A stretch of 27,174 nucleotides of DNA from a virus. The position numbers and the translations under genes are program-made. The stretch spans positions 1 through 27,174 of IMG/VR virus record IMGVR_UViG_3300047359_000579; one strand, 5' to 3'. This document shows positions 1 to 19,796 of the stretch, piece by piece (position 1 is the first letter of the stretch; each line of letters begins with the position of its first letter). A model generated the notes under the pieces. That model did not search any database and was not told where the DNA came from. It was given only the letters and a program-made list of their open reading frames with translations.

Positions 1-397
1 CTACCTCCTCGAAAGACAAAGGTTTATTTTCCCTATAAATTGTTTTTCTAGTCTGTTTAACTATATTGTTATTCTTCTGTAGACTTATTGGCGAGGCTGC
101 ATCGTCATATTGGCGAGGCTGGGTAGACATATTGTCTATGCTGCATGGACATATTGTCCTCTTACGCCCATCTGTTTTAATTACAATCAATTTAGCATCG
201 TGCAACCGCTTAATGCTTCTGCTAATTGTTCTCTCACTAACACCGTAGTCCTCTGAGATCAAAGCGTTCGATTTAAAAAACGTATTGTTGTCCCAATTGA
301 AACTATCAATGTCAGCCCATAGAATTTTGTCAATAGGTTCTAACTTTTTGTTTTCTAGGATAACCCGTGGTATCCATATTCCCTTAAACTGCCTCAT
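1..397 (-). CDS. Winged-helix replication initiator-like protein, 3' end cut by the window edge
   Basis: The reading frame starts at ATG 397 and stays open for 132 codons to the left edge. Residues about 15-75 read as a winged helix-turn-helix: DKILWADIDS, then a helix pair around ISEDYGVSERTISRSIKRL and a basic wing (KTDGRKRTI). This is the N-terminal DNA-binding domain common in phage replication initiators (lambda O and HTH_36-type proteins). The segment after the domain (residues 77-106) is low in obvious structure and carries four 22-bp DNA repeats, as expected for an initiator with its origin inside its own gene. It is the last visible gene of the unit read from the 2473-2503 promoter and overlaps the preceding 42-aa gene by 14 nt. 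A transcriptional regulator is the alternative. The domain call is firm, the replication role is inferred. Confidence 0.7.
   Translation of the reverse strand, partial: MRQFKGIWIPRVILENKKLEPIDKILWADIDSFNWDNNTFFKSNALISEDYGVSERTISRSIKRLHDAKLIVIKTDGRKRTICPCSIDNMSTQPRQYDDAASPISLQKNNNIVKQTRKTIYRENKPLSFEEV
21..80. other. AT-rich tract next to the iterons (putative unwinding element)
   Basis: By count, 15 of 60 bases are G or C (25%). The tract directly follows the iterons in the coding direction of the initiator gene, the same relative order as the AT-rich segment beside the lambda O iterons. The unwinding role is an inference from position and composition. Confidence 0.4.
82..169. repeat. Four tandem 22-bp imperfect direct repeats (putative replication iterons)
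   Basis: Repeat units begin at 82, 104, 126 and 148, each exactly 22 bp apart. On the plus strand the conserved core is GACATATTGTC (126-136 and 148-158, identical), with GTCATATTGGC at 104 and GACTTATTGGC at 82. Units 1 and 2 agree at 17 of 22 positions; the second half of the last unit is degenerate. The core is a near palindrome (GACA...TGTC). Because 22 is not a multiple of three, the encoded peptide does not repeat, so the conservation is at DNA level. Placement inside the initiator gene, two helical turns apart, resembles the four iterons in lambda O. The origin role is inferred. Confidence 0.65.
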
Positions 398-6145: not shown

Positions 6146-6546
6146 AGTTCAGGGTCTTCGGGGAACCAGCCATTCTCTTCCATGTATTCTTGTGATCGGA
6201 TCGTGACATCGCTTGGCACGATATGCCCGAACGGGAACTTCTGATTCACTTGCACGTAACTGCTCAGGCTGTAGCGCTCATCATTCGACAGCTCAGGGAA
6301 GCAAGCCACAAGGCGTTCGAGGTTTGCGGCAGGGTGAACGTTGATGAGGTAATCTGTGTCCACTTGCAAAGCGTTCTGTACTCCGTCAGGGTGTACGACA
6401 ATCCCAAACACGGTCGAGGCCGCTTCGCCTTCCGCCTGTATCAAAACGGGGCGGCTTATGTTGTAGAGTTCGCGCGTAATTTGGTACGCTCTGCGCTCGC
6501 TTGTCTGCGTGTCCGTTGGTAGGACTATGATAAATCCGTTCATCAA
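6142..6546 (-). CDS. Hypothetical protein directly downstream of the tail fibre (134 aa)
   Basis: It is joined to the fibre by an ATGA overlap, so it is probably translated by the same ribosomes. The N-terminus is a beta-alpha unit (NGFIIVLPTDTQTSERRAYQITREL), followed by FGIVVHPDGVQNALQVDTDYLINVHP and an acidic tail (ENGWFPEDPEL). No family recognised. Its base composition is GC-rich like the fibre, so it probably travelled with it; a fibre chaperone or fibre-associated role is possible but not shown. Confidence 0.6.
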   Translation of the reverse strand: MMNGFIIVLPTDTQTSERRAYQITRELYNISRPVLIQAEGEAASTVFGIVVHPDGVQNALQVDTDYLINVHPAANLERLVACFPELSNDERYSLSSYVQVNQKFPFGHIVPSDVTIRSQEYMEENGWFPEDPEL

Positions 6547-9500
6547 TATATGTCGTAAAAAGTGTTGATGTTGCTTTCGATGCCTGTGCGGTCGTTCGTT
6601 CTATCGTCTGAATAAATTATTAATTCTTGGCGGTTACCGACCCAGCTTCTAGTCAAAAAACGGTCTTTACTTATTCTACTAGCTACGGCTGTGCCATCTG
6701 TGTGAATCATACTTAAAACATATTGCCCTGCGCTTCTTGCCAAAGTCGTAAGGTTAACGCTTAAACCATTTAAATAATTATCGCCGTTTCTGACCACGGG
6801 GTCAGCGTGAGTTGCGCTCAACCACTCAGCTGAATTGCCACTATGATAATCGAAATTTGTACTATCCCCGAGGATAAAACTCGAGTTACTATTTGTAAAG
6901 TCGGTAGGTCTTAATACAGAAAAAACACTATTGACGTTTGAGATTTGAGTAAAATTTAAAGAAGTGTTCTGAGTTGAAGTGAAAGCCGCCCGTCCGTTAT
7001 CCGTCACCAAACCCGTGCTGCTGTCGTAAATCTTTGGCATTGAACCCGTGACCGTTTGCGTCGCGTCGTTCGTGTTGCCTGATTGGTCGTACCACTTCGA
7101 CACGAACCCGTTATTTGAACCGCAGTGGTCTGCCAGTGCAACCGTATCCAATTCACCGAATACATTGAAGCCTATATCCGCGTAGCTCGATCCGTTGTAA
7201 ACCTCTACCGCGTCACCTGTGTAAGCCGTGCGAAGTTTACGCAGTGAATACGCAGCCGCTGCACCGCTGTACGTGTCGAGGAGTGGCGTGTTTTGGGTGA
7301 AGTAATCGGCAACGTTTTCTTCGATGTCGGTGCGGTTGCCTGCGGTTTCTTGGTCAGAATTGTAAACAAGCATTTCCTGTACAATTCCAGTTAAATTATT
7401 TATGATACTCGTGTTGTTACCACCAGCTCCGATAATTATGTTTCCCGTGTGGTATTTATTTGTTGGGTATGATATTGTTGATGTGTCCGTGTTTGAGCCA
7501 TTAAAATACAAGTCTGCATTTGTGCCGTCACTATTTACGGTGAGTAAATTGTATGGCGTTGGTTTTGCCCCTGTGTTTGTCAAAGTATTACCACTGCTGC
7601 CGAGGTCTATATAAATATTATGATTACCTGAGGCTTGACCTGTTGTGATTGCACCGCTGTTAGTGTTCCAATAGTCATTACCTGAAGATGGTGCAAGGGA
7701 CGCCACCCGTCTAAAGTCAACTGATGAAGTTTCTTTGAATACAAAGAAGTTGCTGCGAACGTCTAGCCTTGCAATTGCGCTTGCTGTCGTTCTTAAATTA
7801 TCACCACTAAACTCAATGGCTGCCTTTCCGTTCTCCTTCACCAACGCCCCACCCGTGTAAATCGTTGGTTGCTTCGTTGTGTCTGTCTGCGTCGCGTCGT
7901 TACCGTTTCCGCTTTGGTCTTTCCACGTTACCACCGTGCAGCTTGTGCCTGTGCAAAACGTTTCAATAGCAGCCTCGTCGATGTTGCCTTCCGTGTCGAA
8001 GCCTATCGTTGTGGTCGTGCTATCCGATGCCCTGCGAATGAACATGCATTCGGTTTGAGCAAATCGAAGTTGACGTGTCGAATATGCTGCTTCCGCACCT
8101 GAACCAAAAGTTTCGTCCAAAAGATACGCGGTCGCGCTTACATCCTCCCACGTTTGTTTCAGGCTGATTGGAACCGTGCCGCCCGTCCTCGCTTTGAGAT
8201 ACTCCAAAAGAGCCGCCTTGACCGTAGCAAAAGAAGCATCGTCTGCAGGAGCTGGTGTAAACTCAACCCATGTGCCCGTGTCGGGATCTGCGAACGCAGC
8301 CTCTGAGTAATATATCTTCCTCTTGATAACATTGCCCGCTGTTGGGGTGTCGCTGCTTGCGCTCTCCGCGAGTCCGTCCCCGTCCGCTTTAGCGGTGTAA
8401 TAAAGTTCGACTGTATCCGTTGCACCGCTTCGGAATGTCTCCGCATCTGTTGCGAAGCGTTCGTGGTATTGAACCCCACTTGCAGCGTCTGCCCATTCGA
8501 GGTCGTAGTCCGTGCCGCTTGCCTTCACGAGAGCTTGTCCCGAAGTACCTCCTGCTATGACCCCCACTTTTGCCGTGTTCGCGGTTATCTCTCCTGCTTG
8601 AGTCGGGGTGATTCCTGTCTTGGCGTTGTTCGCTGTGATGTCATCGGCTTGGGTTTGAGTGATCCCGACCTTTGCATTGTTTGCGGTGATATCGTTCGCT
8701 TGTTGGGTCGTGATTCCGACTTTCGCGGTGTTGGCTGTTATCTCGCTGGCTTGCGTGGGTGTGATGCCTGTCTTCGCGTTGTTAGCGGTTATGTCTGCGG
8801 CTTGTTGTGTTGTTATTCCAACCTTTGCCGTATTAGCTGCGACAGCTGCATTCGCTGCAACCCGTGCCTCTGTATAGTAAAGATTCGTACCCTCGTCAAT
8901 ATCTGTCGTAACCAAGACCACTACGCCTGTCTGTCCGTTCACCGAGTCAACGGGGGCGCTTGGGATATCGTCCGTAAGCGCTAAAGTCCCTGATGAGGTG
9001 GGGAGGCTGAGGTTTACATTGTCCGCGCTATTGAGACGCATTCGAGCCTTTGTCCCGTTCCCTTCATCGTGGATGTAGACCTTGCCATATAGATTAATAT
9101 CTGCCTCGTTTGCAGTTGTCGAACCGTCTATGTTAATGACTGTGTAAGCCGTTGCTCCTGCGGCATCCGTTGCGACAATAAGATCAATATCTCCTGGGCT
9201 TGTCTCCGTGATTTCTACGCCCGTGATTCCTGCTTTCAGTTTCGCTTGTGTGACCGTTAACTCAAGTGCGCTGTCTGTTCTGCTTCCGTTGTTTTGGGTC
9301 GTGCTTGTGCCTTGCTTTAGTTCGGTATAAAGAATAAGAAGCCAGTCTACATTTTCCCAGCGCGTTTGACCACTGTTGTATTTTAGAACATCGTGATTCT
9401 CAAGGTTGTTAAGCGTTACATCTGTTAATTCAGCCAGAGATGTAACTCCAGTTGCGCTCGTGTCTAATGTAACCTCTCCGTTACCGTCGTCAGTTAGCGA

Positions 9501-9935
9501 TCCGTCAGGCACATTGATTGTACGCACGTAATGTACGTCAGTAGCGTCATTGTCTGTCTTTACACGTAATCGCTGCGAAACGCTAGGCACTAAGCCTTGG
9601 TCGTCACTAGGTACAAACGTCGTGCTTGTGCCGTCGTCGTTATACGTGTTGTACTGACTAGTAGCAAAAATTGGGTCGCCTGTGACAAAAGCAGCAACAG
9701 TCACTAAGTCTGTGCCGTCCACTTTAGCAAACGTCGCTAGATATTGACCCTCTGGTAAACCAGTAGCCGTGTAACTGAACTTTGTGGCACGTTCATTGGT
9801 TTTGTCAGCCACTAAACGAACCAAAAAATGCTCGTCAGTCATTTGAAAAACTAGGGTCAAATTAACCACCGTTAATTCTTCGCCTAAATCAATGTAGAAT
9901 GTCCTCTGTTCGTAATTAGCTAACTGTATCATCAC
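6543..9935 (-). CDS. Tail fibre / receptor-binding protein with tandem arabinofuranosidase-B-like domains (1130 aa)
   Basis: This long protein carries fibre landmarks in order: a head segment (1-140); LAELTDVTLNNLENHDVLKY (167-186) and DSVNGQTGVVVL, both typical of phage fibres; LYYTEARVAANAAVAAN (352-368); five 17-residue repeats (369-453); a spacer; then two C-terminal domains at about 608-882 and 886-1130. Each domain opens with AYStRqLR/AYSLRKLR and has a W(K/Y)DQSGN.NDATQ motif (671-683; 948-960) and ends in a TdIEeNv/TgIEsNIN helix. The motif set resembles the concanavalin-like N-terminal domain of GH54 arabinofuranosidases, so sugar binding at the host surface is likely; catalysis is not shown. 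Start is Met1 or Met2. GC is clearly higher than in neighbouring modules, suggesting horizontal gain. Confidence 0.85.
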   Translation of the reverse strand: MMIQLANYEQRTFYIDLGEELTVVNLTLVFQMTDEHFLVRLVADKTNERATKFSYTATGLPEGQYLATFAKVDGTDLVTVAAFVTGDPIFATSQYNTYNDDGTSTTFVPSDDQGLVPSVSQRLRVKTDNDATDVHYVRTINVPDGSLTDDGNGEVTLDTSATGVTSLAELTDVTLNNLENHDVLKYNSGQTRWENVDWLLILYTELKQGTSTTQNNGSRTDSALELTVTQAKLKAGITGVEITETSPGDIDLIVATDAAGATAYTVINIDGSTTANEADINLYGKVYIHDEGNGTKARMRLNSADNVNLSLPTSSGTLALTDDIPSAPVDSVNGQTGVVVLVTTDIDEGTNLYYTEARVAANAAVAANTAKVGITTQQAADITANNAKTGITPTQASEITANTAKVGITTQQANDITANNAKVGITQTQADDITANNAKTGITPTQAGEITANTAKVGVIAGGTSGQALVKASGTDYDLEWADAASGVQYHERFATDAETFRSGATDTVELYYTAKADGDGLAESASSDTPTAGNVIKRKIYYSEAAFADPDTGTWVEFTPAPADDASFATVKAALLEYLKARTGGTVPISLKQTWEDVSATAYLLDETFGSGAEAAYSTRQLRFAQTECMFIRRASDSTTTTIGFDTEGNIDEAAIETFCTGTSCTVVTWKDQSGNGNDATQTDTTKQPTIYTGGALVKENGKAAIEFSGDNLRTTASAIARLDVRSNFFVFKETSSVDFRRVASLAPSSGNDYWNTNSGAITTGQASGNHNIYIDLGSSGNTLTNTGAKPTPYNLLTVNSDGTNADLYFNGSNTDTSTISYPTNKYHTGNIIIGAGGNNTSIINNLTGIVQEMLVYNSDQETAGNRTDIEENVADYFTQNTPLLDTYSGAAAAYSLRKLRTAYTGDAVEVYNGSSYADIGFNVFGELDTVALADHCGSNNGFVSKWYDQSGNTNDATQTVTGSMPKIYDSSTGLVTDNGRAAFTSTQNTSLNFTQISNVNSVFSVLRPTDFTNSNSSFILGDSTNFDYHSGNSAEWLSATHADPVVRNGDNYLNGLSVNLTTLARSAGQYVLSMIHTDGTAVASRISKDRFLTRSWVGNRQELIIYSDDRTNDRTGIESNINTFYDIY
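8562..8831 (-). repeat. 17-residue tandem repeats in the fibre shaft
   Basis: Five units of (T/N)AK(V/T)GIT(T/P/Q)(Q/T)QA.(D/E)ITAN at residues 369-453, plus a partial unit to 458. The protein repeats are nearly identical but the codons differ between copies: on the plus strand the anticodon-side triplets for Ala, Thr, Ile and Gly vary. They probably form an elongated trimeric coiled shaft. Confidence 0.8.
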
Positions 9936-12835: not shown

Positions 12836-13648
12836 TTATGATAATGCTAAAATATCTGTTGTTGCTCCTACTTTAAATTCTACGTTTTGAAATGGGGTGC
12901 TTTCACCAATACCCAGAACATATTCAATTTCCGTTTCGTTTATGGCGGTGGCTGGAATTTGAAACTGCAAAGGATACTCGTACTCGACAGCCTCAACTGT
13001 TTCAGTCAGTGTAATATACAACCAATCACCAACACGGTAATTAGCCCCTAAAGCACTGGAATCTACTATAGCAGCAGACGGTTGAAACAAAGCTTCCGTG
13101 TCGCCTGCAAGTATCGTATATGTAAAGTCATTACCTCCGTTAACGTCTTCAAAAGTCAAGGCATCGCTTGATTTGTAACCTGTGCCTTTAATGAGATTTG
13201 TGACTTCGACAGTTTGTGATTGAGCAGTTCCTGTAACTTTCATAGTAATCTGAAGTCCTGTACCGTTCCCATCTGTCGTTGGTCGATACGTTTGAAAACC
13301 ATCACCTATTGGAGGGTTTCCTCCGAACACTACCCCTGTAGCTGTAGGAAAAGCATCAACCAAATCACCCTGTACATCAGTTACTGTAACTTTAATTTTA
13401 CCACCTGATCCACGACCGCTTGATGTAGTAGCATACGAAGCAATCGTCGCTGCTTTTTTCATCGTCGGCAAATCATTAATTGCACCAAAGACATTTGCGG
13501 CTGATTTTAGTTTGCTAAACAAATCTGCTTGCGAAGGCTTTAAGGTTAAAGTAATTGCTGCTGTATCTGGGTTGTGCAATACCATAGGCTCAGGCAAAAC
13601 TTGAAAGCCCGATGCCGCTGTTAATTCGTCAAAAAATTTAAATGCCAT
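12836..13648 (-). CDS. Virion-associated protein, possible capsid decoration or head protein (270 aa)
   Basis: The protein is beta-rich and Thr/Gly-rich with no recognised catalytic motif. Segments include VLHNPDTAAITLTLKPSQADLF near the N-terminus, a repeat-like region TSSGRGSGGKIKVTVTDVQGD and GLQITMKVTGTAQSQTVEVTN, and a C-terminus of strands (LQFQIPATAINETEIEYVLG). Such sandwich proteins are common decoration or head-fibre proteins. It precedes the scaffold by 1 nt and overlaps the preceding gene by 11 nt. Function not identified. Confidence 0.55.
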   Translation of the reverse strand: MAFKFFDELTAASGFQVLPEPMVLHNPDTAAITLTLKPSQADLFSKLKSAANVFGAINDLPTMKKAATIASYATTSSGRGSGGKIKVTVTDVQGDLVDAFPTATGVVFGGNPPIGDGFQTYRPTTDGNGTGLQITMKVTGTAQSQTVEVTNLIKGTGYKSSDALTFEDVNGGNDFTYTILAGDTEALFQPSAAIVDSSALGANYRVGDWLYITLTETVEAVEYEYPLQFQIPATAINETEIEYVLGIGESTPFQNVEFKVGATTDILALS

Positions 13649-13907
13649 AATTAGCGTCTCTTAAAAGTGTTGTAAAAAGTCTTTTGTCATAGTAGTCCAT
13701 TTCTGCTGGAGCATACTCTTCAAACAAGGTTTCAGCCTCTGTGTAATCCCAGTTGGCTACAGCCGACTCGATGAGGTCTAAGGCAACCATAAACTTGCGA
13801 TTAAGTGCATAGTCCATGCGAAACTCGTCAATCATATTGCGCAGCTCCGCGTCCTCGTCACCAATCCAGATGTCGTAGATTCTATCCCACATCAGTGATT
13901 CCACCAA
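13638..13907 (-). CDS. Small acidic protein, possible anti-defence relative of the array proteins (89 aa)
   Basis: A helical, strongly acidic protein (WDRIYDIWIGDEDAEL, AVANWDYTEAETLFEEY) ending DANYGI. Its last 15 nt, including the stop, match the end of the array gene at 17368-17619 (shared AAYTATGGCATTTAA on the minus strand), and the two proteins may be distant paralogs: both end in helix-(10-20 residues)-NYGI. It overlaps both neighbours (16 nt with the ArdA-like gene). No known family. A DNA-mimic role is possible given the charge but unproven. Confidence 0.6.
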   Translation of the reverse strand: MVESLMWDRIYDIWIGDEDAELRNMIDEFRMDYALNRKFMVALDLIESAVANWDYTEAETLFEEYAPAEMDYYDKRLFTTLLRDANYGI

Positions 13908-14614
13908 ATGCGACCAAAGTATTCATCGTAATCGTAACTGAGGTCACGAGCAAATGCTTTGTAGTCAAAGTAATCTTTCATCGTTTCTGCTCCTAGCTCA
14001 CTCAAACTACCGAGTAGGTCGTAGACATAATACTCTCCAATCTCAGCATCACTACGTCGCTGGAATTCTTCAAGAGCATCCATAGCTTGGTCTTCGCTAT
14101 CGTAATTGTCTTCCCATTCATCCATAAACATAGCGTCTACGTCACCGCTTACTCGCAGTGCGTATCCAAACTTGTCAAAGCTAAAATACCGTTCAGCCAT
14201 CTCGTCACTAACGCCTATGTCGTCTAGCAATTCATATGAGTAATCCAACAGGCTGTCAAACTCTCCTCGGTAGCTTTCTTCTAGATAATCTACATCAACA
14301 TCCCCCAAATCGCTGCGCACCTTTTCAATGTCGTAGATGTCTAAACCGATTTGATCAGCAAACTTGGCTAATTCTTGAATGCCGTCCCAGTCTTTTTCCG
14401 AAATGCCATCCATGTCAATTCCGTAAGCGTTTAGCCCATCAGAATCGACAAACTCCCACTCTTCAACTTCTGGTGGGTAATCGGCTTTCTTTTCTTCCAT
14501 TCCTTTCTGGAATGCGTCCCAAGAATTGTACGACCACGGATAAATGTAAAAGCCTTGACCACGGTAATTGTAGTCATACGGCTCCATAAAAATGTATATT
14601 TTTTCTAGCTTCAT
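13892..14614 (-). CDS. ArdA-like antirestriction protein with duplicated C-terminal module (240 aa)
   Basis: ArdA proteins are acidic DNA mimics that bind type I restriction-modification enzymes. The N-terminus has the family's GFYIYPWSYNSWDAF, and residues 112-160 (EESYRGEFDSLLDYSYELL then YFSFDKFGYALRVSGDVD) match the ArdA 'Y.GE.dS..d.a.e...…FD..a.A..L...GD' pattern. A second copy of this module occurs at 191-233, ending KDYFDYKAFARDLSYDYDEYF, giving a protein of 240 aa against about 165 in classical ArdA. It is rich in Asp/Glu throughout. It follows the protease via an ATGA overlap inside the head unit, an unusual place, since antirestriction genes are mostly early. Confidence is good for ArdA family, lower for which enzyme it blocks. 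Confidence 0.75.
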   Translation of the reverse strand: MKLEKIYIFMEPYDYNYRGQGFYIYPWSYNSWDAFQKGMEEKKADYPPEVEEWEFVDSDGLNAYGIDMDGISEKDWDGIQELAKFADQIGLDIYDIEKVRSDLGDVDVDYLEESYRGEFDSLLDYSYELLDDIGVSDEMAERYFSFDKFGYALRVSGDVDAMFMDEWEDNYDSEDQAMDALEEFQRRSDAEIGEYYVYDLLGSLSELGAETMKDYFDYKAFARDLSYDYDEYFGRIWWNH

Positions 14615-15558
14615 AGCTTCTTCAAATTGTAAAGTGATCCGTATTTCTTAACGACTATTTTGTGTAGCTCGCGCTTGTGCTTTTTAATGAGCTTTTGGCG
14701 GCTTAACTCCTCCTTTACAGCAACTTCTTCGGCTTTCTCTTCCGTTGCCTTTACTTCTCCGTCATACTCCGTCAAAACGCCTGAAAACACTTCAAGCTCT
14801 ACACCTGCTTCTGTCGTGTATTTTCCGTTTTGGATTTCTACTGGCTGACCCTCTTCATCAATGGTCTTAACCTCAACGCCAGCAGCTAGTTCTTCCGCGT
14901 CGGTAACCAGCATTTGACCGTCTTCTAGCCTAGCCTCTGCGTATAGCTTGCGCTTGCCTGTCAAAAGATTCTTAATCTCAGTCAGGGTATCCATAATTGG
15001 ATTTGATCGTTTACTCATGTTTTCAATTTTGTCTACGAAATAGCCTTCAATAGAAAAGCCTTGTACCTCTTGCTCCTTGACGAATTTCCACATCTCGTCG
15101 TTCCCTACGTGGACTCGAACCATCCAAGTGCCTTCAGGTACGTTTAGTCCATAATGCTTTGATTTATCCATCTCTGGGTCAGACACTACCCAAGACTCTA
15201 CGACTGATACATTGTCGATTGCGTCCTGATGCTCAAAGGTGTGATCGTTGGTGCGGTTCTGCTTCAAATACATTTCAGCAGCTTGCTTAACTGTGTCCTT
15301 AGAGAAGTAAACGTCGTACTCCTCGTCTTTCAGCTCATCGTATCGTGGGATGTGCTTATCAGGAATTAAAGCAGGGCCAATGAGCATGCGTTTGTCCTCG
15401 TCCTCTACGCTCGCTAATGAGACAAATTGATCTTTCTTACCCTGCTTAGAGAAAAAGATGAAATTCTCCTCAATTGCAGGGTGCTTTACTAGACTGATTG
15501 CTTCTACTGCAACTTCTGATTCGTCTCCAATAAGTAGTTCAATTAGCTTACGCTCCAT
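14611..15558 (-). CDS. XkdF-like prohead serine protease with C-terminal scaffold-like extension (315 aa)
   Basis: It would cut scaffold and capsid precursors during head maturation. Residues 55-180 match the XkdF/Peptidase_U35_2 type: MLIGPALIPDKHIPRYD, NDHTFEHQD (H106/H110), SVVESWVVSD (E121), GTWMVRVHVGNDEMWKFV and VQGFSIEGYF (S169). H106 or H110 with S169 are the likely catalytic residues. Residues 200-265 form a small beta domain (LEDGQMLVTDAEE…) and the C-terminus is a charged helix (EEKAEEVAVKEELSRQKLIKKHKRE) that may act as internal scaffold. Its start carries the same leader as the array genes (AAACAACAGAGATATG), which links the array to the head genes. Confidence 0.8.
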   Translation of the reverse strand: MERKLIELLIGDESEVAVEAISLVKHPAIEENFIFFSKQGKKDQFVSLASVEDEDKRMLIGPALIPDKHIPRYDELKDEEYDVYFSKDTVKQAAEMYLKQNRTNDHTFEHQDAIDNVSVVESWVVSDPEMDKSKHYGLNVPEGTWMVRVHVGNDEMWKFVKEQEVQGFSIEGYFVDKIENMSKRSNPIMDTLTEIKNLLTGKRKLYAEARLEDGQMLVTDAEELAAGVEVKTIDEEGQPVEIQNGKYTTEAGVELEVFSGVLTEYDGEVKATEEKAEEVAVKEELSRQKLIKKHKRELHKIVVKKYGSLYNLKKL

Positions 15559-15569
15559 ATCTCTGTTGT

Positions 15570-15854
15570 TTAAACTTGGAATTGCACATAAACAATAAAA
15601 CGTCCGTTATCGTCTTCTGTCCAATAGCCAAAATCATAATACTCATCGTTCTCCATCATCTCAGGGAATTCTTCTCGAACAAAAGCATCTAATTCAAACC
15701 TTTTAATGTCATCAATAAATATGTCAAGTGCAACCTTACTTACGTAAAATGCACTCGCCCTTTCGCTTGGCAAATAACCTATGTACTCAAAACCAGTTTC
15801 ATCTGCTAAGAAGTCACCAAATGCTTCTTGCGCTCTATCGTTTGCGTATGCCAT
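15570..15854 (-). CDS. Array gene 10: acidic hypothetical protein (94 aa)
   Basis: Preceded by the shared leader. The protein (MAYANDRAQEAFGDFLADE; then YIGYLPSERASAFYVSKVAL; FVREEFPEMMENDEYYDFGYW; DDNGRFIVYVQFQV) looks like a compact alpha/beta domain with strong acidic bias. No family recognised. Its stop lies at the leader of the prohead protease. Possible anti-defence or host-takeover factor by context only. Confidence 0.6.
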   Translation of the reverse strand: MAYANDRAQEAFGDFLADETGFEYIGYLPSERASAFYVSKVALDIFIDDIKRFELDAFVREEFPEMMENDEYYDFGYWTEDDNGRFIVYVQFQV

Positions 15855-15865
15855 ATCTCTGTTGT

Positions 15866-16096
15866 TTAGCGTGTTTGCTTTACTCTAACGCCACGATAAT
15901 CATTCATCAAATCTTCCATAACCCACGCGCCTTGCTCTGTCATGTCATCCCATGTCCAAGTGAAGACTTCATTGTCAATGCGGCTTAGTTCACCTACATC
16001 CATCCAATATTGAAAATCATGATTTACCATCCAATCATCAATCCACATTTCCAAAGCGTTAAAATCAGAACCCCATCCGTAAATTTCAAATTCCAT
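15866..16096 (-). CDS. Array gene 9: tryptophan-rich acidic protein (76 aa)
   Basis: Unusually aromatic: seven tryptophans in 76 residues (GWGSDF, EMWIDDWMV, QYWMDVG, FTWTWDDM, GAWVMED). It is acidic in the middle and basic at the very end (RGVRVKQTR). No family recognised. It carries the shared leader at its own start, and its stop sits 11 nt before the next gene's start. Confidence 0.6.
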   Translation of the reverse strand: MEFEIYGWGSDFNALEMWIDDWMVNHDFQYWMDVGELSRIDNEVFTWTWDDMTEQGAWVMEDLMNDYRGVRVKQTR

Positions 16097-16107
16097 ATCT
16101 CTGTTGT

Positions 16108-16350
16108 TTAAGCGTATTCTACATTATACCCTGCACGATACAAGGCAGATTCTAACTCGTCGGCTTGTGTGTGATTTGCGTTGTATAGGAGGATTTCTAC
16201 CTCATAGCCATTTACGTATCCTACTGTTGTTATTTCCACATTACCGAGTCCACCAATTATTTGCTCGCAAAATTCTTGTAGTTCATCGGCCCTAGAGCTT
16301 TGTGAGCTTGGCGAATCAAAATAAACAACTAATTCATGCGTCAGTACCAT
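16108..16350 (-). CDS. Array gene 8: small alpha/beta protein (80 aa)
   Basis: Begins MVLTHELVVYFDSPSSQSS and alternates strands and helices (FCEQIIGGLGN; VGYVNGYEVEILLYNA; ADELESALYRAGYNVEYA), which looks like a ferredoxin-like or ACT-like fold. Its last 30 residues resemble the end of array gene 1 (GQDILEVLKANGFDANEF), suggesting the two are paralogs. Function unknown. Confidence 0.6.
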   Translation of the reverse strand: MVLTHELVVYFDSPSSQSSRADELQEFCEQIIGGLGNVEITTVGYVNGYEVEILLYNANHTQADELESALYRAGYNVEYA

Positions 16351-16360
16351 ATCTCTGTTG

Positions 16361-16639
16361 TTATGCTCTTCTGATGTAATCTAAATCATTGAGAAAGTCA
16401 TCAATGTAATCTTCTCTTCCAAAGCCTATGCCCATATAACTAACGCTGTCTTCTACGTAGTCGATGGCTTCTTGTGCTGACATACCGTCATCATTAAAAA
16501 ACGATGCTGTGATTTCAGCAAGTAGTTCTATAAACTCAAACCGATCTTGACCAACAGCAGGATTTTTGCCATATTCCAATAGCAAAGCCGATAGCAAATC
16601 GTATCGTCTTTCTTTACTGATATATAGGTCTGTCCTCAT
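16361..16639 (-). CDS. Array gene 7: helical hypothetical protein (92 aa)
   Basis: Helical, with a basic N-terminus (MRTDLYISKERRYDLLSALL) and acidic C-terminal half (AQEAIDYVEDSVSYMGIGF, DYIDDFLNDLDYIRRA). Its leader lacks the usual AT before ATG. The end (AGAAGAGCATAA) resembles that of array gene 6, a shared ten-base junction. No family recognised. Confidence 0.6.
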   Translation of the reverse strand: MRTDLYISKERRYDLLSALLLEYGKNPAVGQDRFEFIELLAEITASFFNDDGMSAQEAIDYVEDSVSYMGIGFGREDYIDDFLNDLDYIRRA

Positions 16640-16648
16640 CTCTGTTGT

Positions 16649-16876
16649 TTATGCTCTTTTAATTATGTCTTCCAGAATACCTACTGAAATCTTGTATCCG
16701 TATGGTCGGGCTTCTAGAAGCAATTCAATCATTTCTTCGCAGTATTCACTCTGTCCATAATAAATATTATCTTCAAGTTCAATGGCTGTTACTCTACCCG
16801 TTACCCATGTAAGCATTTCTTTGGAGTTTAAAGTCCTAAGCAATGTGCGTATTTCTGAGGGATACGGGATAAACAT
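16649..16876 (-). CDS. Array gene 6: hypothetical protein (75 aa)
   Basis: MFIPYPSEIRTLLRTL at the N-terminus, a strand-like WVTGRVTAIELED, YCEEMIELLLEARPYGYK and a C-terminal helix ILEDIIKRA. Less acidic than its neighbours. The shared leader is complete (AAACAACAGAGATATG). No family recognised. Confidence 0.6.
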   Translation of the reverse strand: MFIPYPSEIRTLLRTLNSKEMLTWVTGRVTAIELEDNIYYGQSEYCEEMIELLLEARPYGYKISVGILEDIIKRA

Positions 16877-16887
16877 ATCTCTGTTGT

Positions 16888-17133
16888 TTATAGGTAATCT
16901 ATTTCTACGTCTGGCTCTTGATTTTCCAAGTCATCCATGACCTCAAACAGGAAGTCTTCGTCGTCCAAATCTAAATAACCCGTCACCTCGACCATTCTTC
17001 GCATGTCACCACGATCTGCATCTGCATAACCGTAATCATCTATGGAAATATCCAAATCACCTTCGCCTGCACCACGTGAGTCTAGGTAATCATGTACTTC
17101 GTTAAACGATAAGCCTTTTATTACAATAGTCAT
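16888..17133 (-). CDS. Array gene 5: highly acidic protein, DNA-mimic candidate (81 aa)
   Basis: By count 25 of 81 residues are Asp or Glu against five Lys/Arg, so the net charge is near -20. The acidic residues are spread along the chain (DLDISIDDYGYADADRGD; DLDDEDFLFEVMDDLEN). The short N-terminal segment (MTIVIKGLSFNEVHDYL) looks structured. Such charge density on a small protein is the hallmark of DNA-mimic inhibitors (Ocr, ArdA, some anti-CRISPRs), but no family is recognised. Confidence 0.6.
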   Translation of the reverse strand: MTIVIKGLSFNEVHDYLDSRGAGEGDLDISIDDYGYADADRGDMRRMVEVTGYLDLDDEDFLFEVMDDLENQEPDVEIDYL

Positions 17134-17145
17134 ATCTCTGTTGTT

Positions 17146-17340
17146 TTATAATCTCCCAAATCTTTCTAACATATCATACAACGCATCGTACATCTCGTCC
17201 CGTTCTGTCCGTGAAGCGTTTACCGCTAAACGCCATTCTTTTAATACGTCATGCATTACGTCACTAGGACTCATGCCGTAATCACGAGCATAATCTAACG
17301 TCAGCAAGTAGTTTTCTTTTAACTCATTTTCGAAAGACAT
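17146..17340 (-). CDS. Array gene 4: all-helical small protein (64 aa)
   Basis: Begins MSFENELKENYLLTLDYARDYG, with MSPSDVMHDVLKEWRLAV and a final helix (ERDEMYDALYDMLERFGRL). All-helical, mildly acidic. Shared leader complete. The gap to the previous gene's stop (17341-17367) is 27 nt, longer than elsewhere in the array. No family recognised. Confidence 0.6.
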   Translation of the reverse strand: MSFENELKENYLLTLDYARDYGMSPSDVMHDVLKEWRLAVNASRTERDEMYDALYDMLERFGRL

Positions 17341-17367
17341 ATCTCTGTTGTTTAGTAAGTATAAATG

Positions 17368-17619
17368 TTAAATGCCATAGTTGCTGGTTGTGTAAGCGTA
17401 ATCTTCAATGGCATCTTCTAATTGACGCAGAAACTGAGGAGTTAAAAACCGATATGCATTCCACTCATTTAAAATTAAGTGCATACGCATTGGTGTGTCA
17501 TCGTATAGTGCATCGGCAAGTTTAGACACAACATCTTCTGCCCAATCCAAATGAGCAGGTATGTTTCGCACTTGCTCATAGATTTCAGAAATTAAATTAT
17601 CTAATTGGTTAAAATCCAT
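17368..17619 (-). CDS. Array gene 3: helical acidic protein ending in NYGI (83 aa)
   Basis: Helical: MDFNQLDNLISEIYEQV, WAEDVVSKLADALYDD, MHLILNEWNAYRF, LRQLEDAIEDYAYTTSNYGI. The final NYGI and stop share a 15-nt sequence with the end of the 13638-13907 gene, and just past its stop lies a fossil-like ATGGCATTTAA that equals the start of the next gene at that other place. Shared leader present. Function unknown. Confidence 0.6.
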   Translation of the reverse strand: MDFNQLDNLISEIYEQVRNIPAHLDWAEDVVSKLADALYDDTPMRMHLILNEWNAYRFLTPQFLRQLEDAIEDYAYTTSNYGI

Positions 17620-17630
17620 ATCTCTGTTGT

Positions 17631-17870
17631 TTAGTACAATTCTATGACAATACTTTTATCCGACTCGCTTGTCATGTCATAATCTCTAAACCCTAAATCC
17701 TGTACTATTTGTCTAATGTCATATCCCCACTCACGGAGGTCACCAGCACCGTTTCTATAAATTACTACTTCAGCAGTTCCGTACGACAGCAGAGCCCCGT
17801 ATTCGATCATATAACCTAGACGTTCTACTTCGTCCATAAAGGCATCTAATTCTCTTTGTGTTACTTGCAT
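17631..17870 (-). CDS. Array gene 2: alpha/beta acidic protein (79 aa)
   Basis: MQVTQRELDAFMDEVERLGY then EVVIYRNGAGDLREWGYD and IRQIVQDLGFRDYDM, ending SIVIELY. It looks like a small beta-alpha-beta domain related in outline to array genes 1 and 8. Its leader differs by one base from the consensus. Function unknown. Confidence 0.6.
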   Translation of the reverse strand: MQVTQRELDAFMDEVERLGYMIEYGALLSYGTAEVVIYRNGAGDLREWGYDIRQIVQDLGFRDYDMTSESDKSIVIELY

Positions 17871-17881
17871 ATCTCTTTTGT

Positions 17882-18073
17882 TTAAAATTCGTTTGCGTCA
17901 AAACCGTTTGCCTTCAATACCTCAAGGATGTCTTGACCATAACGTGAGTCATCAACTTCCACAACACAGGCCATCATGCCCTTACTTCTATAGTGAAGTA
18001 CAAACACATCAAGATCGTGCAGCTTCAATACATGCTCTACATCTCGCCAGTGTTCGTGTACTAAAATATCCAT
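17882..18073 (-). CDS. Array gene 1: first small gene after the promoter (63 aa)
   Basis: I take the start at ATG 18073 (MDILVHEHWRDVEHVLKLHD) because the promoter at 18091-18121 puts the transcript start near 18083; the frame reaches 18121 but that start would lie inside the promoter. The protein alternates strands and helices (VFVLHYRSKGMMACVVEVDD) and ends EVLKANGFDANEF, resembling array gene 8. Leader ATAAACAG is related to, not identical with, the shared one. Confidence 0.6.
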   Translation of the reverse strand: MDILVHEHWRDVEHVLKLHDLDVFVLHYRSKGMMACVVEVDDSRYGQDILEVLKANGFDANEF

Positions 18074-18090
18074 CTGTTTATCTTTATAGC

Positions 18091-18121
18091 AAAATATACA
18101 TAAATTTATACATATTTGCAA
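18091..18121 (-). promoter_or_regulatory. Promoter of the small-gene array and head genes
   Basis: On the minus strand TTG (18121-18119) is followed after 20 nt by TATATTTT (18098-18091), seven of eight matches to TAnnTTTG. It lies between the tape-measure stop and the first array gene, in an AT-rich stretch. It would drive the array, protease, ArdA-like gene, scaffold, capsid and tail-tube-like gene to the terminator at 10665-10698. Confidence 0.6.
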
Positions 18122-18170: not shown

Positions 18171-19796
18171 TCATAGGTGTAACCTTTTTTCCAATGACCC
18201 CTGAGCTTGCATTTGACCCTGCAATTCACTTTGTACTATAAACGCTTGATTAGCTTGTGGTAAGGATAGTTGGCGATCGCCTGACATTTGCGGCACTAAT
18301 GATTGCGTCATACCCCCACTTCCTCGACCTCCTCCTCCACTACCCAATCCTCCCGTACTTGCGCCTGCTTGATTCAGTATGCCCTTTACCTGTGCAAAAG
18401 AACTCATTACAATACCAACTAACTGCGCTATCAAAATAGGTGTAACAATAGGAGCTGCTGGTCCAGAAGCTGTGGCTGCTACTGTCGCTGCTGTAATGGC
18501 AGATGAAACAGCTTGCGCTTGAGACAACAAAATGCTAGTAATAGCAAATGCCTTTTGTGCTTCTGAGCCGTCCGTAGCTAATCGTTCAAGCTGGCTGCTA
18601 ATATTCTCTGCGGCCCTTAGCCCTTCTTGCCTTGCTGCACCCGTCAAGCGTATTCCCTCTATTGCAATTGCTGTCGCTCTTTGATTTGCTAGAACCTCAG
18701 CGTCACTAGCGTCCAATATTTCTTGGGTTTTCTGGTCTAAAAACGCATCGAGGTCATCTAATTGGCGTTGGTAGCTGTCGCGTTTCTGCTGTTCAATTTC
18801 TTGATCGCGATTGAACTGGTCCATTGCAAAATCATCAAACTCCTCGTCTTCGCTTTCCTTTTCTAACTGTCGAATTTGTTCGTCTATGCTGGCCCTTTCC
18901 TTTTCTAGCCTTAAACGCTCTACCTCTGCTTCTCTCTGTAATCTAGCCGCTTCATTTTGCCGCTCGATTTCTTTAGTTCGCTCTGCCTCGATTGCAAGTT
19001 GTTGCAGTATAAGCCCGTTGAACTCTTCTTTTAAGTCATTAATTTCGTTGTCAATGTCCGCTTGTGCCTCGTCTACTTTTTGCGCACGCTGTCGCTTACT
19101 TAACAATAGGTCTAACGTAGTCAAAGCATCGTCTGCTGTTTGTCTACGCTTCTCTTCAATAGCTTGTAATGTTTTCTGCTGTTGCGCTTGTAAACCCTCA
19201 AGTTCTATCTGACGTTGGACCGCTAAATTGAATCGCTCTAAACCGTCTGCCGTTGAGATGTCGAGGTTCTGTACTTCTCTTAACCTAGCACCCATCGTAG
19301 CCAAAGCCTGATTACGCAGATCGGCACTTGCTGTGCTGTCATTGACCGAATCAATATATTGCTGATTGGCTGTGACGTATGAGTTTATTGCTGTAGTTCC
19401 TGCCTCTACACGCTTGTTGTACTCCTCTTGTTTTTTATCGACACCCGTGAGGAGATTTGTAATAGTCTCCCAATTCTCAATAAGCGACTCTAACGCTAAA
19501 ATCAATAAGCCGATGCCTAATCCAGCAAACGCGCCTTTTAGAAATTTTAGGCTACGACCCAACCGACCCACCGCACGCTGGGTAGATTGAAACTTCCGAA
19601 TCATCATCTGGATGTTTCGAGGCAACAAACCACTAAACAAGTTGGCAAAATTACCAAACTCCTTTGAGCTTGCGCTGGCAGCTTTTTTGGATTTTCTCTT
19701 TAACTCTTCAACCTCATCACCTACCTCCTTAATATTTTGCTTCGCGTCTTCGACCTCTGCGACAACCTTCGCTTCTACGTTTATCGGTTTAGCCAT
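18171..19796 (-). CDS. Tail tape-measure protein (541 aa)
   Basis: It sets tail length and lies in the tail lumen. Residues 110-415 are long charged helices with coiled-coil character (QIELEGLQAQQQKTLQAIEE; AARLQREAEVERLRLEKERA). Hydrophobic segments at about 85-106 (LKGAFAGLGIGLLILALESL) and 424-473 (SQAQAVSSAITAATVAAT…LIAQLVGIVMSSF) could enter the host membrane. A Gly-rich hinge (SGGGGRGSGG) and a C-terminal FIVQSELQGQMQAQGSLEKR end, as in Bacteroidota siphophages, follow. At about 0.15 nm per residue the tail would be near 80 nm. Confidence 0.85.
   Translation of the reverse strand: MAKPINVEAKVVAEVEDAKQNIKEVGDEVEELKRKSKKAASASSKEFGNFANLFSGLLPRNIQMMIRKFQSTQRAVGRLGRSLKFLKGAFAGLGIGLLILALESLIENWETITNLLTGVDKKQEEYNKRVEAGTTAINSYVTANQQYIDSVNDSTASADLRNQALATMGARLREVQNLDISTADGLERFNLAVQRQIELEGLQAQQQKTLQAIEEKRRQTADDALTTLDLLLSKRQRAQKVDEAQADIDNEINDLKEEFNGLILQQLAIEAERTKEIERQNEAARLQREAEVERLRLEKERASIDEQIRQLEKESEDEEFDDFAMDQFNRDQEIEQQKRDSYQRQLDDLDAFLDQKTQEILDASDAEVLANQRATAIAIEGIRLTGAARQEGLRAAENISSQLERLATDGSEAQKAFAITSILLSQAQAVSSAITAATVAATASGPAAPIVTPILIAQLVGIVMSSFAQVKGILNQAGASTGGLGSGGGGRGSGGMTQSLVPQMSGDRQLSLPQANQAFIVQSELQGQMQAQGSLEKRLHL

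Follow-up and report, generated by a model that had tools for sequence, protein, structure and literature searches.

Positions 20-160 of the window, by which we mean the complete IMG/VR virus record IMGVR_UViG_3300047359_000579 (27,174 bases, classed linear), are very probably a theta replication origin embedded in the phage's own initiator gene, in the manner of lambda O, TP901-1 ORF13 and Tuc2009 Rep2009. The original prediction had pointed to four repeats exactly 22 bp apart within a winged-helix gene, and all four were recovered on the minus strand, with centres at exactly this distance, at 146-160 (the weaker copy), 124-138, 102-116 and 80-94. They are followed by an AT-rich tract. We infer that the winged-helix protein binds the repeats, that the AT tract opens, that a helicase is delivered and that the stretch is active as an origin. 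As the initiator and its sites share one gene, they are inherited together and evolve together.

The left end of the window falls within a minus-strand gene running from 397 to 2, of which the first 132 codons (N-terminus MRQFKGIWIP...) are present before the record end cuts it; the remainder is visible in relatives, whose full-length proteins have 205-213 residues. Judging from PHROG matches and from these relatives, the gene encodes a replication initiator (replisome organizer). The PHROG families matched are several for replication initiation and one of DnaD-like helicase loaders (2.5e-13), while the matches to families named 'replication initiation O-like' (E 1e-5 to 2e-8) appear to reflect mainly the common winged helix. 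This presumed iteron-binding domain was assigned to residues 1-84 (146-397, minus strand) from a Pfam match to HTH_36 at residues 18-71 (E=7.5e-8) and from a full-protein AlphaFold model built from the relatives with L009 as the first sequence. In this model of modest confidence (mean pLDDT 57), the helices and strands of the winged helix occupy residues 2-84, residues 86-123 lack confident structure (pLDDT 24-29 over residues 91-120), and residues 129-181 form the helices of a C-terminal domain, which carries the motif FYDYYxANGWVQGK...DWKAAARNW. According to the model, the linker 86-123 between the two domains is probably disordered. Its codons correspond to 29-142 (minus strand) and hold most of the origin-like DNA, which thus mainly encodes the least constrained part of the protein. 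The records of the window and of the relatives L014 and L015 all end inside the initiator gene (at codons 132, 72 and 54, respectively), near the repeat array, perhaps since assembly breaks at variable or repeated sequence.

No related solved structure was found for the initiator when searched by sequence, and a fold search of the PDB with the initiator model returned weak winged-helix matches only. Among these were 4pt7 ('initiator') and 5kbj ('Rep-DNA complex'), which we take to be staphylococcal RepA with its N-terminal winged helix on iteron DNA. This likeness to RepA-type plasmid initiators (TM about 0.46 by target) is weak and falls short of significance (E-values 0.08-0.16), and the winged helices of many proteins other than initiators scored equally. 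The corresponding search in viral models yielded phage initiators, replisome organizers and HTH proteins.

Motif and dyad analysis defined the anatomy of the array, which lies 240-320 nt inside the ORF and whose units are inverted half-sites of the TAGACA or TCGCCA type around an AT centre (consensus TMGMCA-ATW-TGKCKA). Iteron 2 (TAGACAATATGTCTA, 124-138, minus strand) is the best copy, TAGACA-ATA-TGTCTA, a perfect dyad with 6-bp arms that matches the 15-mer TMGMCAATWTGKCKA without mismatch. Iterons 3 (TCGCCAATATGACGA, 102-116) and 4 (TCGCCAATAAGTCTA, 80-94), the latter adjoining the AT tract, deviate from it at one position each. Iteron 1 (AGGACAATATGTCCA, 146-160) is the poorest consensus match, with three mismatches, but retains a dyad with 5-bp arms. 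The same periodicity was detected as three 34-nt direct repeats at 79-156, spaced exactly 22 and 22 bp. A search of the window and of 11 loci of the family placed the strict dyad motif in the initiator gene alone. A comb of four dyads was reached by 0-1 of 500 synonymous shuffles in clade A and in L027, and is less clear in L009 (15/500) and L024 (4/500). Half-sites of the more distant clade pair better over a 7-bp GC-rich spacer than as an AT-centred dyad. The array is best described as half-sites that alternate along the DNA at a period of 22 bp, in which the pair occupied by a dimer could be AT-centred or spacer-centred.

The 25% GC tract that had been predicted to follow the repeats was likewise found. 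At 21-80 the GC content is 0.25, and 0.95% of the 60-mers of the window are equally AT-rich; we presume that the tract (20-79, minus strand) is the unwinding element. It has 18-33% GC in all family members. Within it, three tandem 13-mers resembling (T/A)AACA(A/G)nnTA (33-71, minus strand) are suggestive; they are clearest in relatives and share one 13-bp register in each of the eight members compared, although mostly not significant against synonymous shuffles, L008 alone being clearly unusual. The third-position GC skew showed no inflection around the iteron site.

The repeats had been proposed to be a DNA signal and not a by-product of the encoded peptide. We therefore shuffled synonymous codons within each gene while keeping the protein intact (1000 shuffles per gene). 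The lag-22 self-similarity of the window gene was 45/66 against a maximum of 41 in the shuffles, so the repeat is not forced by the peptide. Nine relatives found in viral contigs gave lag-22 scores of 41-47, each above all 1000 of their own shuffles, and lag 22 was the best lag with one exception, where it tied with its multiple 44. Absence of the repeats from close homologues had been named beforehand as a refutation, and this outcome did not arise. In all relatives that reach the region, the gene has 205-213 codons and contains four units spaced by exactly 22 bp. Repeats, spacing and AT tract persist in each relative that was read, including those with as little as about 58-62% protein identity. 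Two clades with about 62% identical protein allowed us to compare codons for identical residues: the share of these that differ between the clades is 0.58 in codons 1-79, and falls to 0.18 in iteron codons 80-107 and 0.13 in AT-tract codons 108-121. The suppression in the iterons gave p<0.03 in each of 12 between-clade pairs, which are not independent of one another. At codon 95, arginine is spelled only CGC or AGA, corresponding to the two half-site types. The suppression of synonymous change in both iterons and AT tract indicates that the DNA sequence itself is selected, and the DNA-signal proposal is thereby borne out.

The layout resembles that of established origins. Iterons and an AT tract in the middle of O form the origin of lambda and Stx phages, and binding by O has been published (PMC7466680); O proteins exist as dimers (PMC7466680; PMC3349717). 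As in the window, the lambda iterons are AT-centred dyads (first copy TCCCTC-AAAAC-GAGGGA) followed by an AT-rich tract, but the four annotated copies, from codon 117 to about codon 145, start 20, 24 and 23 bp apart, whereas the window keeps a strict 22 bp. Downstream, lambda has its P gene and ninG, and the relatives of the window an ORF in the P position, unrelated to lambda P by the libraries used, and NinG. The description 'lambda-O-like' in the original prediction therefore holds for the layout, namely AT-centred dyads, the order of winged helix, iterons and AT tract, the P-position ORF and NinG. It does not extend to homology: Phage_rep_O is absent among the Pfam matches of the initiator listed at E<=1, and a profile comparison with lambda O gave an hhalign probability of 0.2%. 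A lambda O homologue was rejected on these grounds.

Relatedness was detected instead to lactococcal proteins, tblastn matching the initiator to those of P335, BK5-T and other lactococcal phages. BK5-T ORF49 has a homologous winged helix (hhalign 96.2%, E=2e-9, residues 9-76), and its annotated repeats lie at the corresponding place, codons 93-120; they are TACA...TGTA units with an AT centre, recur at intervals of about 22-23 bp and lead into AT-rich DNA. For the related phages TP901-1 and Tuc2009, the initiators are reported to bind repeats lying in their own coding sequences, which function as the origin (PMC8965321). The P335-group initiators differ from the window family in their half-sites, in length (269 residues in the P335-type comparison against 205-213) and in the lack of a profile match beyond the winged helix, and these phages belong to a different lineage, probably with a different host phylum. 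The best reading of the lambda-like layout and the BK5-T-related winged helix is therefore that the initiator works like lambda O, while by descent its DNA-binding domain would sit with the P335-type replisome organizers.

The gene order was read in L019. Here a 188-aa ORF occupies the lambda P position after the initiator; next come a homologue of NinG (PHROG 1e-21) and a sigma-like ORF, with the terminase region about 2.7 kb further on. The P-position ORF directly after the initiator is conserved at 188-205 aa (5581-6147 in L019, 5560-6177 in L028); it matches DUF6633 below the cut-off and PHROGs of unknown function, and from its position it is a candidate helicase loader. The right end of the window begins a short way upstream of the gene for the large terminase, and thus the record is without the initiator-to-terminase piece of a genome of ~30 kb (29,933 bases in L019). 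The best named relatives of the terminase are Phocaeicola phages (35-36% identity), which suggests a Bacteroidota host. Searching bacterial genomes with a full-length profile of the initiator yielded no relative, and so does not fix the host. Elsewhere in the window, about eleven small, mostly acidic ORFs (13638-18121, minus strand) lie between the head genes and a tape-measure-like ORF (18171-19796), and an 1130-aa protein (6543-9935, minus strand), possibly a tail fibre or adhesin-like, has a ANTAKVGITTQQAADITANN-type tandem repeat around its midpoint.

Operators, too, typically contain dyad sites such as these, and the initiator shows weak fold matches to ArsR/MarR/GntR-type regulators. The repeats could accordingly be an operator through which the initiator or a phage repressor shuts off its own transcription, with replication starting elsewhere. 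We consider this unlikely: the sites lie 240-320 nt within the ORF, away from a promoter position, four phased sites with an adjacent conserved AT tract exceed what an operator needs, and in lambda and the P335-group phages this layout has been proven to be an origin. Inverted-repeat arrays serve as partition (parS-like) or packaging (pac) sites as well, yet no partition genes were recognised around the array, the terminase genes are about 2.8 kb away in relatives, and the array-bearing gene is itself a replication initiator, which makes such a role highly improbable.

Even less probable are two further explanations. The dyads could form hairpins of 5-6 bp and work in the mRNA to control translation or stability, and the L009 sequence does fold better than its shuffles (z=-4.3). 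However, the window copy folds no better than its shuffles (z=-0.3), on which ground we rejected RNA structure as an explanation, and RNA would need neither exact 22-bp phasing nor a conserved neighbouring AT-rich tract. It is just as hard to credit that the repeats are recent tandem duplications without function within a disordered linker. Near-perfect, in-frame tandem linker repeats that could be neutral do occur in some distant initiators of the survey described below, but the copies in the window family are degenerate, their spacing does not vary between clades that are about 62% identical, and synonymous changes are down about three-fold where neutral copies would drift.

An origin embedded in the initiator gene thus stands as the preferred reading. 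It would operate through winged-helix dimers bound side by side to the four dyads, about two helical turns apart. The resulting nucleoprotein complex on the iterons would open the adjacent AT tract, and the C-terminal helical domain, the small P-position ORF or both would bring in the host replicative helicase.

To see how general such linker arrays are, we collected 160 loci by the C-terminal motif and drew from them 116 distinct initiators, two of which (L116 and L117) belong to the family of the window. Of the 116 initiators, 49 have repeats that exceed 100 synonymous shuffles, compared with 1 of 102 control ORFs taken from these loci. In 22 of the 49 the lag is not a multiple of three, and for 47 of the 49 the signal maps to the stretch that separates the winged-helix part from the C-terminal motif. 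Some in-frame repeats may be neutral tandem duplications, and 49 is therefore an upper figure for the functional arrays detected by the shuffle test. Three distant relatives (MT837714, a Porphyromonas phage and Bacteroides C3) gave no significant repeat at the sensitivity used, a result that means little because the same test also failed to flag clearly the irregularly spaced lambda O and BK5-T.

Several survey initiators show a 22-bp period with other half-sites, e.g. CCGTAAAAATTTTACGG in L125, and L118 retains half-sites of the TAGACA type. The linkers of L120 and L125 carry 22-bp arrays with a conserved GGCAGA spacer between TTTACGG/CCGTAAA half-sites, which recalls the GCAG spacer of the window family. 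A 20-bp array occupies codons 126-146 in the initiator linkers of L071 and L154, and is shared by a viral contig and the genome of Alistipes sp. CHKCI003, where it probably belongs to a prophage. In the handful of cases available, repeat and recognition helix pair as TAGACA/TCGCCA with SERTISR and as CCGTAAA with SRPTISK. We regard it as an evenly balanced proposition that linker-embedded origins are the general rule in a large, mostly unannotated class of initiators (winged helix plus DYYxxxGW...DWKAAxRxW) from phages and prophages of Bacteroidota and Bacillota, with the repeat following the recognition helix and the origin readable from codon shuffles alone.

The array in the window would be a further case of an already known design, the initiator-embedded origin, and supplies a precise predicted origin for a family of uncultivated phages; Alistipes sp. 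CHKCI003 offers a cultivable relative in which to study origin function. Taken together, our data suggest that the lambda-style placement of an origin in the codons of a disordered linker extends past the lambdoid and lactococcal phages to many initiators, and the synonymous-shuffle test could serve to find the origins of many phages and prophages that lack annotation.
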